A program made the translations under genes and the position numbers. 64,000 bases of DNA, from positions 62,001 through 126,000 of the forward strand of contig JAIXSM010000027.1 in NCBI GenBank assembly GCA_027484655.1, written 5' to 3'. Shown one piece after another: positions 23,583 through 47,508 of the stretch. Position 1 is the first letter of the stretch. Each line of letters begins with the position of its first letter. The stretch is from Hyphomicrobiales bacterium. Lineage in GTDB: Bacteria; Pseudomonadota; Alphaproteobacteria; Rhizobiales; Beijerinckiaceae. Under the pieces are notes generated by a model. It saw nothing but the letters and a program-made list of their open reading frames with translations, had not been told where the DNA came from and did not search any database.

Positions 23583-24416
23583 TCAACTCTCAGCAAGAAA
23601 TTTCAATCGGTGTTCCTTGAGCAGATCGATAATGGCGGCGGCTGTCTCCTCGATGGAGCGACGAGTTACATCGATAACAGGCCATTGGTTTTGCTGGAAA
23701 AGTCGCCGAGACGAGGCAATTTCTTCGGCGACTGAGAGCCGGTCGACGTACGCCGTTTCCTGATCCGCGTTCAGAGTAAGAAGCCTATTCTGCCTAATCT
23801 GCACGATCCGGTCCGGCGAGGCCAAAAGCCCGACGATCAACGGTCTGCGAACGTTCATGACCGCGCCCGGTATCGGGAGGCCCGGGACGAGCGGGATGTT
23901 TGCGGTCTTTATCCCACGATTAGCAAGATAGATGCTGGTAGGCGTCTTTGATGTGCGGCTTACCCCGAGGAGAATCACGTCTGCGGCTTCAAGACTTTCG
24001 TGGACCTGACCGTCGTCATGCAACATGGTGAAGTTAAGCGCGTCGATACGCTTGAAATATTCAGCGTTCAACATGTGCTGGGCGCCGGGTCTGGATGTGG
24101 ACACTGCCCCGAGATAGGATTGAAAAAGCTCGAATATTGGCATCAGGACGGAAAGGAAGGGGCTCCCTGTCTCCGCGCATGCTCGCTCGAGCTCGGTCGC
24201 GAGCTCCTTATCCACCAAAGTGTACAAGACGATCCCAGGAGCCGCCGAGATTTCTGCGATCGCTCGGTCAAGCTGGGTACGGCTACGGACAAGCGGATAA
24301 ACATGCTCAATCGCGGCGACACCCTGAAACTGAGCCGTTACAGCTCTACTGACTGCGATAAGCGTCTCACCGGTCGCATCCGAAACCAAATGGAGGTGAA
24401 AGTAGTTTCGATTCAC
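23583..24416 (-). CDS. ppsR: DUF299 kinase/pyrophosphorylase (PEP synthase/PPDK regulator)
   Basis: A 277-residue DUF299 protein; family members reversibly phosphorylate PEP synthase or pyruvate phosphate dikinase. The P-loop-like LLGVSRTSKTPTS and the N-terminal HLVSDATGETL are present. Which target is used here is unknown. Its homologue flanks the replication origin in Caulobacter and Rickettsia (the RP001 position), and here too it borders the AT-rich origin-like gap. Confidence 0.92.
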   Translation of the reverse strand: MNRNYFHLHLVSDATGETLIAVSRAVTAQFQGVAAIEHVYPLVRSRTQLDRAIAEISAAPGIVLYTLVDKELATELERACAETGSPFLSVLMPIFELFQSYLGAVSTSRPGAQHMLNAEYFKRIDALNFTMLHDDGQVHESLEAADVILLGVSRTSKTPTSIYLANRGIKTANIPLVPGLPIPGAVMNVRRPLIVGLLASPDRIVQIRQNRLLTLNADQETAYVDRLSVAEEIASSRRLFQQNQWPVIDVTRRSIEETAAAIIDLLKEHRLKFLAES

Positions 24417-24510
24417 GCGTGGCTCCGAGATGCTTGTGGGGGCGTGGAAACCTGTGGACGATAAGAGCTCTCACAAACTGCCGGGGCCGACTATACCGTT
24501 GGCTCGCTTC

Positions 24511-24527
24511 AGCTCTCACAGGAGAGC
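24511..24527. repeat. Direct and inverted repeat in the origin region
   Basis: AGCTCTCACA occurs at 24466-24475 and again at 24511-24520. The second copy extends into a perfect inverted repeat, GCTCTC-ACAG-GAGAGC (24512-24527). It may be a protein site in the origin. Confidence 0.5.
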
Positions 24528-24539
24528 CACGCCGTCACC

Positions 24540-24559
24540 TTAACAGAGCGTTATCAACA
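24540..24559 (+). promoter_or_regulatory. CtrA-like box overlapping a DnaA-like box
   Basis: TTAA-CAGAGCG-TTAT (24540-24554) differs from the CtrA consensus by one base, and its last four bases are the first four of TTATCAACA (24551-24559), one base from the DnaA consensus TTATCCACA. Overlap of the two site types is known from Caulobacter Cori. Confidence 0.6.
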
Positions 24560-24671
24560 TTCGGCGACTCGAGATGCTATCCTCATCCATTGAACAGGCC
24601 CAGTTTTTTAAGATTCTGTTTTTTTTGGTGTTTTTGATCTGTCCACACCCCAGAGACTAATGCCCATGGGA

Positions 24672-24687
24672 TTAACGAGGCGTTAAC
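24672..24687 (+). promoter_or_regulatory. Consensus CtrA box in the origin region
   Basis: TTAA-CGAGGCG-TTAAC matches the CtrA consensus TTAA-N7-TTAAC exactly. It lies between the two AT-rich tracts of the gap. Confidence 0.75.
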
Positions 24688-24816
24688 CTCTTGTTGAAAA
24701 CTCTTGGATGATCCTGAATGTCGCCCATACAGCCCTAACAATAAAAAAAACCTTTAAGAATCTCTTTAGATATATTTCATTGGGTTTCCTCTTCGACCGG
24801 GAGCGATCACGCTCGG

Positions 24817-25269
24817 ATGCGAAGACGCTTATTCTGGACGCTCAACGTGTACCTATCAATCAAAGCACTTCATATCGTTGCAGTCATCTCATGGATGGCC
24901 GGCCTGCTCTACCTGCCGCGGCTCTTCGTTTATCATTCAAACGTACCCAGGCTCAGTGAGCCAAGCGAGCTCTTCAAAATCATGGAGTACCGCCTCTACA
25001 GGTACATTATGACGCCTGCCATGATCGTTACTGTCCTGTCGGGCGTTTACATCGCCTATTCTGGAGCGCATTATGAGAGCTACTGGTTTATGACGAAAGC
25101 TCTACTCGTCGTACTCATGATAGGTGTGCATTTTGTTTTGGGCCGCCATCTTTCGGAGTTCAACGAAGACAGGTCCACGGCAAGCGGCAAGTACTTCAGG
25201 GTCATCAACGAAGTGCCAACACTCTTAATGATTGCAGTGGTGGTTTTAGCGGTCGTCCGCCCCTTCTAA
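24817..25269 (+). CDS. hemJ: HemJ protoporphyrinogen IX oxidase
   Basis: HemJ oxidises protoporphyrinogen IX to protoporphyrin IX in the inner membrane. The 150-residue protein has about four membrane helices; the first contains the conserved His in KALHIVAVISWMAG and is followed by LYLPRLFVYH, a family hallmark. ATG 24817 is used; GTG 24847 is an alternative, and a GAGCG-ATCA-CGCTC hairpin precedes the ATG. It begins the rightward transcription unit at the origin; hemE, which usually precedes it, is missing. Confidence 0.92.
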   Translation: MRRRLFWTLNVYLSIKALHIVAVISWMAGLLYLPRLFVYHSNVPRLSEPSELFKIMEYRLYRYIMTPAMIVTVLSGVYIAYSGAHYESYWFMTKALLVVLMIGVHFVLGRHLSEFNEDRSTASGKYFRVINEVPTLLMIAVVVLAVVRPF

Positions 25270-28081: not shown

Positions 28082-28097
28082 TGTTTCACGTGAAACA
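28082..28097. promoter_or_regulatory. parS centromere site 1
   Basis: TGTTTCACGTGAAACA is a perfect 16-bp match to the bacterial parS consensus. It lies right after the mnmE stop codon in the mnmE-mnmG gap, about 2.6 kb from parA. It would nucleate ParB loading. Confidence 0.95.
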
Positions 28098-30006: not shown

Positions 30007-30617
30007 TGACTTTTCCGGACCCGTTGGCCCGCCAGCTGGATGTTTCACGTGAAACACTTGAGCGGCTCAAGCTGTATGAATCGAAACTTCGAAAGTGGAT
30101 GCCATTCAAGAACCTGATCGGGCCCTCAACGCTAGGTGAACTCTGGACCCGGCACTTTGCGGATTCGCTCCAGCTTCTTAGTCTGGCGCCAAAGGCGCGA
30201 CGTTGGGTCGATATCGGGTCTGGCGCCGGTTTTCCAGGGATGGTGATTGCCGCCGCCCTGGTCGGTCAAAGAGATGCGGTGGTCCATCTGATCGAGGCTG
30301 ATAATCGAAAATGCGCTTTTCTCCGGGAGGTTGCCCGAGACCTGAAGGCTCCCGTGCAGGTTCACCATGGACGCGCCGAGGATCTTATTGGGCCTCTAGA
30401 GGCAGATGTCGTCACGGCTCGCGCCGTAACAGAACTTTCGAATCTTTTCAGACTTGCTGCGCCGCTTCTCAACGCTGGCGCCCTTGCTCTTTTCCCCAAG
30501 GGACGCGAGTATGAATCTGAACTCGCTGCGCTAGGACAAGATTTCCCATTTTCTCTTGAGATTGTGGCCAGCCTCACGGCGGTCGACGGAAAAATCCTTC
30601 TTTTCAGGCCCTTATAA
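30006..30617 (+). CDS. rsmG: 16S rRNA (guanine527-N7)-methyltransferase RsmG
   Basis: RsmG (GidB) methylates G527 of 16S rRNA. The 203-residue Rossmann methyltransferase has the SAM loop WVDIGSGAGFPGMVIA. ATG 30006 overlaps the last base of the mnmG stop. A perfect parS site lies within codons 12-17 and encodes VSRET. It is followed by parA after about 30 nt. Confidence 0.96.
   Translation: MTFPDPLARQLDVSRETLERLKLYESKLRKWMPFKNLIGPSTLGELWTRHFADSLQLLSLAPKARRWVDIGSGAGFPGMVIAAALVGQRDAVVHLIEADNRKCAFLREVARDLKAPVQVHHGRAEDLIGPLEADVVTARAVTELSNLFRLAAPLLNAGALALFPKGREYESELAALGQDFPFSLEIVASLTAVDGKILLFRPL
30041..30056. promoter_or_regulatory. parS centromere site 2, inside rsmG
   Basis: A second perfect TGTTTCACGTGAAACA, embedded in the rsmG coding sequence and 1.96 kb from site 1. 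It is about 0.6 kb from parA. Confidence 0.95.
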
Positions 30618-30650
30618 GCTCCTTTGGTAGTCATAAACGGAAGTCACATG

Positions 30651-31448
30651 ATGCGCGTACTTGTGCTCGCCAATCAGAAAGGCGGCGTGGGAAAGACCAC
30701 GACGGCGATTAATCTCGGCACTGCACTGGCGGCAATCGGGGAGAAGGTCCTGATAATCGATCTTGACCCGCAGGGAAACGCATCCACCGGTTTGGGAATC
30801 GAGCGAAAGGCCCGCCGTAAGTCGACTTACGACGTGATGGCTTCGGAGGAAACGCTCGCGGCGGTCATCCATGAGACGGCTGTGCCGAGGCTCTTCATCG
30901 CCCCGTCCACGCTGGATTTGCTCGGTCTCGAGCTCGAAATTGCTGGAGATTCTGATCGCAGCTACCGTCTGCGTGACGCCATCGCTTCCTTTGTGGCGAG
31001 TTTTGTGGATCGTCCCGATCCTTACACCTACATACTCGTGGACTGCCCCCCGTCACTTAACCTCCTGACGATTAACGCATTGGCAGCCGCGGATGGGGTC
31101 TTGGTGCCGCTCCAGTGCGAATTCTTCGCACTAGAAGGGCTCTCCCAGCTCCTGTCCACGGTGGAGCAGGTAAAGGGAAACCTTAACCATAAGCTTGAAA
31201 TCCATGGGATTGTCCTCACCATGTACGATCCGAGGAACAATCTCGCGGCTCAGGTCGCTGCAGACGTGCGCGCGTTCATGGGGGATAAGGTCTACGACAC
31301 GATTATCCCGCGCAACGTCCGCGTGTCCGAGGCGCCTTCCCATGGCAAGCCTGTGCTCCTGTACGATCTGAGGTGCAGCGGAAGCCAAGCGTATCTAAAA
31401 CTCGCGTCCGAAGTGATTCAGCGCGAACGCGCCCTTCGAGCAGCGTAG
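30651..31448 (+). CDS. parA: Chromosome partitioning ATPase ParA (Soj-like)
   Basis: ParA moves ParB-bound origins. The 265-residue deviant-Walker ATPase starts with VLANQKGGVGKTTTAINL and has the switch segment YILVDCPPSLNLL. ATG 30651 has GGAAG 7 nt upstream; ATG 30648 immediately before it is equally possible. No N-terminal DNA-binding extension is present, as in chromosomal ParA. It is followed by parB after 20 nt. Confidence 0.97.
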   Translation: MRVLVLANQKGGVGKTTTAINLGTALAAIGEKVLIIDLDPQGNASTGLGIERKARRKSTYDVMASEETLAAVIHETAVPRLFIAPSTLDLLGLELEIAGDSDRSYRLRDAIASFVASFVDRPDPYTYILVDCPPSLNLLTINALAAADGVLVPLQCEFFALEGLSQLLSTVEQVKGNLNHKLEIHGIVLTMYDPRNNLAAQVAADVRAFMGDKVYDTIIPRNVRVSEAPSHGKPVLLYDLRCSGSQAYLKLASEVIQRERALRAA

Positions 31449-31468
31449 GTCGACGGAGAACAGGATCT

Positions 31469-32329
31469 ATGGCCGAAGAAGGAAAACCTCGTCTGGGGCG
31501 AGGGCTGGCGGCGCTGCTCGGCGAGGCTCGGGACCTCCAGAAGAGCGACCGGCCAAGCGGGCGCGCCCAGCGCGCCCCGATTGAATTGATCCGGCCGAAC
31601 CCGCGTAACCCCCGGCGAACGTTCGACGAGCAGGAGCTGGAGAACCTCACCAAGTCCATTCGAGAAAAGGGGGTCATCCAGCCCCTTATCGTTCGTCGCG
31701 TGTCCGGTGACGGCTACGAGATCATTGCCGGGGAAAGGCGATGGAGGGCAGCGCAACGGGCTGGGCTCCATGAGGCGCCGATCGTTGTGGTCGAAGCTAC
31801 AGATCAGGAATCGCTAGAGTTTGCGATTATTGAGAATGTTCAGCGCTCCGATCTGAACCCAATTGACGAAGCCCAGGGCTACGCCCGGCTGCAATCCGAG
31901 TTCAACTACGCGCAAGGTGATGTGGCGAGAGTCGTCGGCAAGAGCCGTAGTCACGTCGCCAACACGCTGCGCCTCCTGACGCTCCCGGCAGAAATACAGA
32001 AACTGGCGATCGACGGCGCTCTGAGCGCCGGGCATGCCCGGGCGCTGGTCGGGCTGGAAAACGCCGAAGACCTTGCTCGCAGGGTGGTCGAGAAGGGTTT
32101 GTCGGTCCGCGACCTTGAGAAATTGACCCAGGGACGCGAGGGGAAGGCCGCTCCGCGGTCGCGGAAGGCGATTGCGCAGGATCCAAACACCGCGGCCATC
32201 GAGAGAGATCTTCAGAATGCGCTCGGTCTCAACGTCAGCCTGAAAGATGAAGGGGGCGCTGGCGAATTGATCCTGAGATATGCATCCCTCGAGCAACTGG
32301 ATCTTCTGCTTTTGAAGCTCAAGTCCTGA
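31469..32329 (+). CDS. parB: Chromosome partitioning protein ParB
   Basis: ParB is the parS-binding CTP switch protein. The 286-residue protein has the N-terminal LGRGLAALLG ParA-contact helix, the CTP-binding ParB/Srx domain with GERRWRAAQRAGL, and a helix-turn-helix containing GKSRSHVANTLRLLTLP. The start is ATG 31469 with AGGA upstream. Its last codons overlap convergent holA by 11 nt. Confidence 0.97.
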   Translation: MAEEGKPRLGRGLAALLGEARDLQKSDRPSGRAQRAPIELIRPNPRNPRRTFDEQELENLTKSIREKGVIQPLIVRRVSGDGYEIIAGERRWRAAQRAGLHEAPIVVVEATDQESLEFAIIENVQRSDLNPIDEAQGYARLQSEFNYAQGDVARVVGKSRSHVANTLRLLTLPAEIQKLAIDGALSAGHARALVGLENAEDLARRVVEKGLSVRDLEKLTQGREGKAAPRSRKAIAQDPNTAAIERDLQNALGLNVSLKDEGGAGELILRYASLEQLDLLLLKLKS

Positions 32330-41951: not shown

Positions 41952-41967
41952 TTAATGCCGGTTTAAC
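41952..41967. promoter_or_regulatory. Consensus CtrA box upstream of ftsK
   Basis: TTAA-TGCCGGT-TTAAC on the plus strand reads TTAA-ACCGGCA-TTAAC on the minus strand, so the consensus including the trailing C is satisfied both ways. The centre is about 86 nt upstream of the ftsK ATG. Confidence 0.75.
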
Positions 41968-47433: not shown

Positions 47434-47508
47434 GCGGGTGTAGCTCAGGGGTAGAGCACAACCTTGCCAAGGTTGGGGTCGAGGGTTCGAATCCCTTCGC
47501 CCGCTCCA
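47434..47508 (+). tRNA. tRNA-Gly (GCC)
   Basis: A 75-nt cloverleaf including an encoded CCA. Acceptor stem GCGGGTG/CGCCCGC (one G-T pair), D-arm AGCTCAGGGGTAGAGC, anticodon loop TTGCCAA with anticodon GCC, T-arm GGGTTCGAATCCC. The GCC anticodon reads GGC and GGU glycine codons. It is a single isolated tRNA gene. Confidence 0.97.

Follow-up and report, generated by a model that had tools for sequence, protein, structure and literature searches.

A ppsR-hemJ intergenic gap as a proposed chromosome origin with predicted CtrA dyads that recur across the Hyphomicrobiales

The 400-bp gap between the divergently transcribed genes ppsR and hemJ in a Hyphomicrobiales bacterium is, from sequence comparison, very probably the chromosomal replication origin (oriC). 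It is likely to act as a DnaA-dependent origin of the main chromosome that is held off by the phosphorylated cell-cycle regulator CtrA bound at TTAA-N7-TTAA dyads. The gap lies in a stretch of 64 kb (the window, bases 62001-126000 of contig 12), which was taken from a draft genome of 3.59 Mb in 80 contigs. The parts of such an arrangement are present, conserved and consistently spaced among relatives, and the genome carries ctrA, sciP and a ccrM candidate. Papers are cited below by PMC number, each for the parts of its text that were available.

An earlier note had described an AT-rich 400-bp gap between divergent ppsR and hemJ, and this was confirmed, with the boundaries falling exactly at 24417 and 24816. 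The gap has a GC content of 48.5%, compared with 60.9% for the whole window, and 49 of 6392 windows of 400 bp stepped over 320 kb of the contig were equally AT-rich, counting those that cover the gap itself. The flanking genes and the other features of the locus are listed in Table 1. The usual right neighbour of such origins, hemE, lies away from the gap on contig 51 (G000:C51:78877-79887), and hemJ stands where hemE would. In relatives hemJ usually lies 3' of hemE, and it was the first neighbour in this genome and at 12 other family loci (13 of 105 family gaps). Past hemJ the gene order is rho, mnmE, mnmG, rsmG, a parA-type gene and parB, and beyond ppsR on the other side are a Maf-like gene and coaE. 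Among the named loci in the best 80 of 194 PpsR matches, the closest belonged to uncultured Beijerinckiaceae/Hyphomicrobiales and one Roseiarcaceae strain, with Microvirga and Methylobacterium ranking lower. An Rfam search of the window returned one tRNA, at 47434, and nothing else.

Table 1. Features of the proposed origin and its surroundings, in window coordinates
Feature	Position	Strand	Basis or remark
ppsR (pyruvate,phosphate dikinase / PEP synthase regulator), left flank	23583..24416	-	NF003742, 334.8 bits (cut-off 225)
Proposed chromosomal origin (oriC), ppsR-hemJ gap	24417..24816	.	Synteny, AT content, motifs, conservation
DnaA-like site TCGTCCACA, ppsR-proximal, two mismatches	24453..24461	-	Beside GTGGA pair common to relatives
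One-mismatch dyad	24540..24554	+	Overlaps DnaA-like 9-mer TTATCAACA (24551-24559)
AGATTCT followed by T run (AGANTCT element)	24611..24626	+	Motif scan
DnaA-like site CTGTCCACA, two mismatches	24639..24647	+	Motif scan
Perfect CtrA dyad TTAA-N7-TTAA (predicted)	24672..24686	.	Also in homologous gaps of relatives
One-mismatch dyad	24683..24697	+	Half-site 24683-24686 common with perfect dyad
AT-rich zone, likely unwinding element, AGAATCT at 24757	24732..24786	.	AT 0.72-0.75 in 40-bp windows
One-mismatch dyad, inside AT-rich zone	24754..24768	+	Contains GANTC 24758-24762
hemJ, right flank	24817..25269	+	TIGR00701, 148.3 bits (cut-off 138)
Perfect parS, inside mnmG	28082..28097	.	Motif search
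Perfect parS, inside rsmG	30041..30056	.	Motif search
parA	30624-31448	+	ParA-type ATPase models, scores below their cut-offs
parB ORF	31373-32329	+	parB_part, 180.1 bits (cut-off 58.45)
Second perfect window dyad, promoter-type, outside oriC	41952..41966	.	78 bp upstream of ftsK-like ORF

In Caulobacter crescentus and Rickettsia prowazekii the origin is flanked by hemE and the COG1806/ppsR homologue (PMC1914354), in agreement with the statement in the earlier note that the Caulobacter origin, Cori, adjoins a ppsR homologue. The order ppsR-gap-hemE/hemJ was found in 105/110 family regions, 85/88 regions from the rest of the order and 80/89 from the rest of the class that were examined. At the present locus ppsR is in place, with parAB and two perfect parS sites at 3.3-7.5 kb from the gap; three parS matches were found at up to three mismatches, a number reached in 0 of 100 shuffles. 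The family, order and class sets all show their AT maximum at 0.7-0.8 of the gap length, and the AT-rich zone of the present gap, where 40-bp windows starting at 24732 and 24747 have an AT content of 0.72-0.75, is a likely unwinding element. Synteny, parS/parAB, DnaA cores found family-wide, the fixed AT-rich zone and strand-polar octamers all support the reading of the gap as oriC, and we infer that it fires as such.

An origin at another place, such as close to dnaA or at the skew minimum, with the gap serving as a conserved regulatory region beside parAB, is very improbable. Such a reading could appeal to the distance of dnaA from the gap, which is 36 kb here (on the ppsR side) and 73-167 kb in three relatives (G036, G037 and G009). 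However, this distance is no guide, because ppsR and dnaA are ~1.15 Mb apart in G008 and ~0.9 Mb apart in G020. In Methylocystis sp. SC2, presumably a relative, the skew is likewise described as unclear, and the origin is predicted at a distance from the three dnaA genes (PMC3794950). Further arguments against an origin elsewhere are the synteny with the Caulobacter and Rickettsia origins (PMC1914354), the DnaA cores, the AT-rich zone and parS.

GC skew, which the earlier note had proposed as a check, was weak as a locator of the origin and gave a mixed result. The host contig (320 of 323 kb) was uninformative, with a nearly flat skew whose minimum fell at 194.5 kb, compared with 86.6 kb for the gap. 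In the relative G037, with a main contig of 4.84 Mb for which closure was assumed, skew was sampled at 20 places, with values above zero at 0.01-1.95 Mb and below zero at 2.19-4.61 Mb. The fine minimum coincided with the contig join and was 325 kb away from ppsR (+325 kb), as an origin elsewhere would have it, whereas the plus-to-minus turn between 1.95 and 2.19 Mb, and thus the maximum, was roughly opposite the ppsR gap. The displaced minimum perhaps reflects a rearrangement or a weak bias near the origin, and it still counts against the simple claim of a minimum at the gap. In a further relative, G036, the skew was noisy (20 samples).

Octamer polarity was also determined. On the host contig, GGGNAGGG octamers numbered 3 plus and 7 minus to the left of the gap and 22 plus and 9 minus to the right (Fisher P 0.03). 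The joint best switch points were at 70-85 kb, at 100 kb and at the gap (86.6 kb), each placing 29 of 41 octamers, and the switch was not significant when its place was left free (P 0.075). In an 8-mer screen of sampled stretches of G037 (L351-L369), GGGCAGGG was strongly strand-polar, 29 to 0 in leading orientation, and is a possible FtsK-orienting sequence; its polarity was mixed beyond ~+110 kb from the gap in the fine-mapped stretch. At ~4.52-4.84 Mb of G037 contig C1 (L371-L390), skew and polar octamers were mixed on the ppsR side, perhaps through rearrangement.

DnaA-like 9-mers, which the earlier note had reported in the gap, are present but weak. A single match to TTATNCACA within one mismatch was found (24551-24559), which is at chance level (shuffle P 0.19), and the whole window held 13 such matches against 13.3 expected. 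Modestly over chance were the seven DnaA-like 9-mers at up to two mismatches (P 0.025) and the two copies of the core TCCACA/TGTGGA (P 0.012). In relatives the signal was clearer by comparison with shuffled gaps: cores averaged 2.21 per gap in the family, 2.14 in the order and 1.88 in the class, compared with 0.19-0.25 after shuffling, and they formed two groups, one beside ppsR and one at 0.5-0.7 of the gap length. No match to the IHF consensus WATCAANNNNTTR within one mismatch was found in the gap.

Two near-perfect TTAA-N7-TTAA boxes had been counted beside a perfect one. The perfect dyad stood, and the one-mismatch copies proved to be three rather than two. The perfect dyad and the imperfect one that overlaps it form a run of three half-sites in 11-bp steps (24672, 24683 and 24694), and TTAA occurs five times in the gap, compared with an expectation of 0.15 from the contig. 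Two of the three imperfect dyads overlap weak DnaA-like 9-mers, one as given in Table 1 and the other, at 24683-24697, with a two-mismatch 9-mer at 24692-24700. The third, at 24754-24768, may be incidental, as an alignment of nine gaps keeps its GANTC in most rows and not the dyad. In the remainder of the 64 kb there was one perfect dyad, at 41952, and no one-mismatch copy. Five matches across a window are not unusual (16 of 100 shuffles reached five), but their clustering in the gap is: among 4000 dinucleotide shuffles of the gap, 0.6% held at least one perfect dyad and none held at least four dyads at up to one mismatch. TTAA-N7-TTAA thus occurs inside the gap beyond chance.

The dyad recurs in the homologous gaps of relatives. 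The family set comprised 30 loci plus the best 80 of 194 matches and is biased to relatives close in PpsR; 5 of its 110 rows were dropped for want of a hemE/hemJ match (L018, at a contig end, L046, L047, L110 and L111). For the order set, 127 of 150 genomes gave a match and 90 regions were taken from these, of which two of the host's own family were removed; for the class set, 133 of 192 genomes gave a match and 89 regions were taken. Rows without hemE/hemJ were likewise dropped from the order set (L153, L174 and L219, with a dyad in L153 and L174) and from the class set (nine rows, with a dyad in L248 and L295), and near copies (at least 25% common 8-mers) were reduced to one each before counting. 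A perfect dyad was found in 36 of 57 non-redundant family gaps, compared with a mean of 0.24 and a maximum of 3 in 300 shuffles (mean 0.19, maximum 1 in 100 further shuffles). Outside the family, it was present in 30 of 79 gaps of the order (100 shuffles: mean 1.19, maximum 4). In the rest of the class the excess was small, with 11 of 77 gaps against a shuffle mean of 2.92 and a maximum of 7; at a GC content of at least 40% it was 7 of 58 against 0.43 (maximum 4). Across 76 named loci, 75 dyads were counted within 40 kb of gaps and 0 within 879 kb of flanks.

The spacing of the half-sites was strict. In the family 39 pairs were separated by seven bases and 0-3 by any other spacing from 0 to 20; the corresponding numbers were 34 and at most 9 in the order, and 13 and at most 6 in the class. 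The sequence of the seven-base spacer varied among dyads. Dyads were placed at 0.35-0.6 of the gap in 37/39 cases in the family, 22/34 in the order and 7/13 in the class, and the perfect dyad of the window, at ~0.66, lies on the hemJ side of this usual range. It is highly unlikely that the dyads arise by chance from AT-rich sequence or are the sites of another factor with equal spacing. The gap is indeed AT-rich and the class excess small, as chance would predict, but shuffles that preserve composition, the peak at seven bases and the mid-gap position all argue against chance in family and order, and seven other AT tetramers scored as pairs gave no peak at seven. Chance AT-richness was rejected as the source of the dyads for the family and the order.

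The dyad was not universal. It was lacking in perfect form from 21 of the 57 family gaps, 7 of which had a one-mismatch dyad. By group, it was present in all syntenic regions of f5 (4/4), f38 (3/3) and f39 (3/3) and in none of f18 (0/5), f22 (0/4) and f33 (0/4); one more f22 region (L174), very AT-rich and without a hemE match, has a dyad. On a tree of HemE fragments (121 rows), the dyad label required 23 changes, compared with 40.8 in shuffles (minimum 31), so that its distribution is grouped by descent although the label has switched repeatedly; gain and loss cannot be told apart on this tree. CtrA scored over its cut-off in 79 of the 80 relatives checked, and the sole miss, G031, is a draft of 450 contigs that has the dyad. 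Loss of ctrA was not supported as the cause of dyad absence, as all 41 dyad-less genomes among these 80 carry the gene. Many Microvirga origins (for example L049, L054 and L062) carry two perfect dyads 58-59 bp apart.

Perfect dyads also occur elsewhere in the host genome, where 24 were found, compared with 11 for a reversed control pattern. Among 15 sites fetched, the origin included, 12 lay 27-92 bp ahead of an ORF start that had been called mechanically. The second dyad of the window suggests CtrA control of ftsK; the FtsK model gave 134.8 bits on the 474 residues fetched of the downstream ORF, below its cut-off of 1566. Other dyads were located 62 bp before rpoD and 51 bp before an ORF for a PdhS-like kinase (both partial proteins with scores below the model cut-offs) and 798 bp upstream of minD. 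Downstream of others were outer-membrane, efflux, L,D-transpeptidase or hydrolase genes, or unmatched ORFs. The described CtrA targets of Brucella include rpoD, minC and pleC (PMC2877005).

These promoter-type sites bear on another reading, in which the gap is oriC and its dyads are promoter elements, of ppsR, hemE, hemJ or an origin transcript, with no action of CtrA on replication. We consider this unlikely, although the 12 of 15 sites close to ORF starts would fit it, as would the position of the window dyad only 130 bp upstream of hemJ and a promoter-like match facing ppsR at 24519-24490. Transcription at the origin is, moreover, a route proposed in Caulobacter (PMC4468827). Against it stands the position of the dyads in relatives, where the median distance to the flanking start was 232 bp for ppsR and 252 bp for hemE/hemJ, and where 4 of 73 dyads were closer than 100 bp. 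Also, a perfect dyad was retained in 7 of the 13 gaps that adjoin hemJ instead of hemE. These two observations show that the dyad is not simply a gene promoter site, and the mid-gap placement of nearly all family dyads points the same way. A scan for sigma-70-type promoters found no match on the plus strand from 24300 to 24816.

The preferred reading, in which CtrA gates the origin, agrees with the gene content of the host. Its CtrA scored 422 bits (cut-off 350), and its first 118 residues differ at nine positions, counted from the alignment, from the CtrA chain of PDB 4qpj. The sciP gene lies 2.3 kb from ctrA, and a ccrM candidate has methylase and RAMA domains, with 605 bits for the CcrM model, below the cut-off of 830. 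With the recurring, strictly spaced dyad, these genes uphold the suggestion of the earlier note that replication may be under CtrA control. Read from ppsR to hemJ, the predicted layout would be a group of DnaA sites, the CtrA dyads, a second DnaA-like site and the AT-rich unwinding zone with its CcrM site. We infer that phosphorylated CtrA would bind the dyads and that this binding would hold off initiation, with bound CtrA keeping the DnaA complex away from the AT-rich zone or unable to open it; once CtrA activity drops, DnaA would open the origin. A block of the DnaA complex is the likely action: the dyads are flanked by two groups of DnaA sites, with the AT-rich zone close by, and in Caulobacter CtrA represses the origin (PMC4468827). 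An observation that counts against this reading comes from C. crescentus, where reducing the affinity for CtrA at each of the five sites disturbed the replication program only mildly (PMC4468827).

The closest known system is Cori of C. crescentus, which shares the hemE-ppsR (COG1806) setting, DnaA sites, GANTC and TTAA-N7-TTAA CtrA sites (PMC1914354, PMC3973325, PMC4468827). Cori has five CtrA sites, whereas the gap studied here, which hemE no longer adjoins, has one perfect and three imperfect dyads. Both of the stronger DnaA sites of Cori (G-boxes) are described as adjoining or overlapping CtrA sites. In contrast, where a family gap contains a perfect dyad it is mostly a single one, in mid-gap and not nearer to DnaA cores than chance. 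A core lay within 15 bp of a perfect dyad in 7/39 cases in the family (8.7 expected), 4/34 in the order (7.3) and 1/13 in the class (2.2). As this proximity is no better than random, direct exclusion of DnaA by adjoining perfect dyads is not supported as a general rule. The origins of R. prowazekii and Wolbachia show a similar logic of flanking genes, with predicted CtrA, IHF and DnaA sites (PMC1914354). Those predictions tolerated a mismatch in A's, whereas the dyads counted here are perfect and lie far above shuffles in family gaps of 40-71% GC.

Other members of the order differ. Sinorhizobium meliloti also belongs to the Hyphomicrobiales and its CtrA is well conserved, but its origin is described as unbound and without a CtrA motif in the available text of PMC4433202, and the CtrA of B. 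abortus did not bind its origin in the part available of PMC2877005. According to a 2015 review, CtrA sites are not observed at origins other than those of Caulobacter and perhaps Rickettsia. Our literature search, which covered subscription papers poorly, returned no report of CtrA sites at a Beijerinckiaceae-type origin, and the available parts of PMC8116508, PMC9437464, PMC3885167, PMC11514494 and PMC10073500 report none at an origin in Beijerinckiaceae. Within the literature searched, the CtrA-dyad origin is thus known as a kind, and its occurrence across the order and its mid-gap layout appear to be new. Direct CtrA gating could be a common and possibly ancestral trait of much of the Hyphomicrobiales, retained as a dyad in mid-gap next to an unwinding zone that tandem AGANTCT CcrM sites mark, with a loss in those rhizobia and Brucella that have been studied, a proposal that we find conceivable and put forward tentatively. 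If it is true, the rule drawn from the rhizobial and Brucella models, of a CtrA that leaves the origin alone, would be an exception in the order. A direct role of CtrA in replication is predicted for many Methylobacterium and Microvirga and predicted to be absent in other groups, and the gain or loss of the link between CtrA and the origin becomes a comparative question. Since these predictions fall in named, cultured groups, a direct role of CtrA can be tested with ordinary tools.

The GANTC sites that had been noted in the gap were borne out, with three inside (24566, 24612 and 24758) and a fourth just outside at 24410. Their number was above the contig density (P 0.046), but it showed no excess over shuffles of the gap (P 0.37). 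In the window as a whole GANTC was strongly depleted, with 132 sites against 344 expected from dinucleotide shuffles. AGANTCT elements numbered five in the 64 kb, two of which are in the gap (24611-24617 and 24757-24763). Across named loci, GANTC density was 12.75 per kb in gaps compared with 1.95 per kb outside. A GANTC at 0.68-0.85 of the gap, in the AT-rich zone, was found in 47 of 57 family gaps and 63 of 79 order gaps, compared with 15.0 and 20.2 expected from letter shuffles, and in 37 of 80 class gaps, compared with 19.9. At least two GANTC at 0.6-0.9 of the gap were present in 87 of the 136 family and order gaps, with neighbours mostly 7-8 bp apart. The context A-GANTC-T accounted for 35.6% of 267 sites against 2.2% of 1712 outside the gaps, a difference that the AT content of the zone explains in part. 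Several GANTC motifs are also described in Caulobacter origins (PMC3973325). Tandem AGANTCT thus recurs across the order as a second conserved element, placed in the AT-rich zone, and it is a candidate for an unwinding element that carries CcrM methylation sites. The unwinding repeats of E. coli also start with a methylase site (GATC), a parallel that we take only as a lead.
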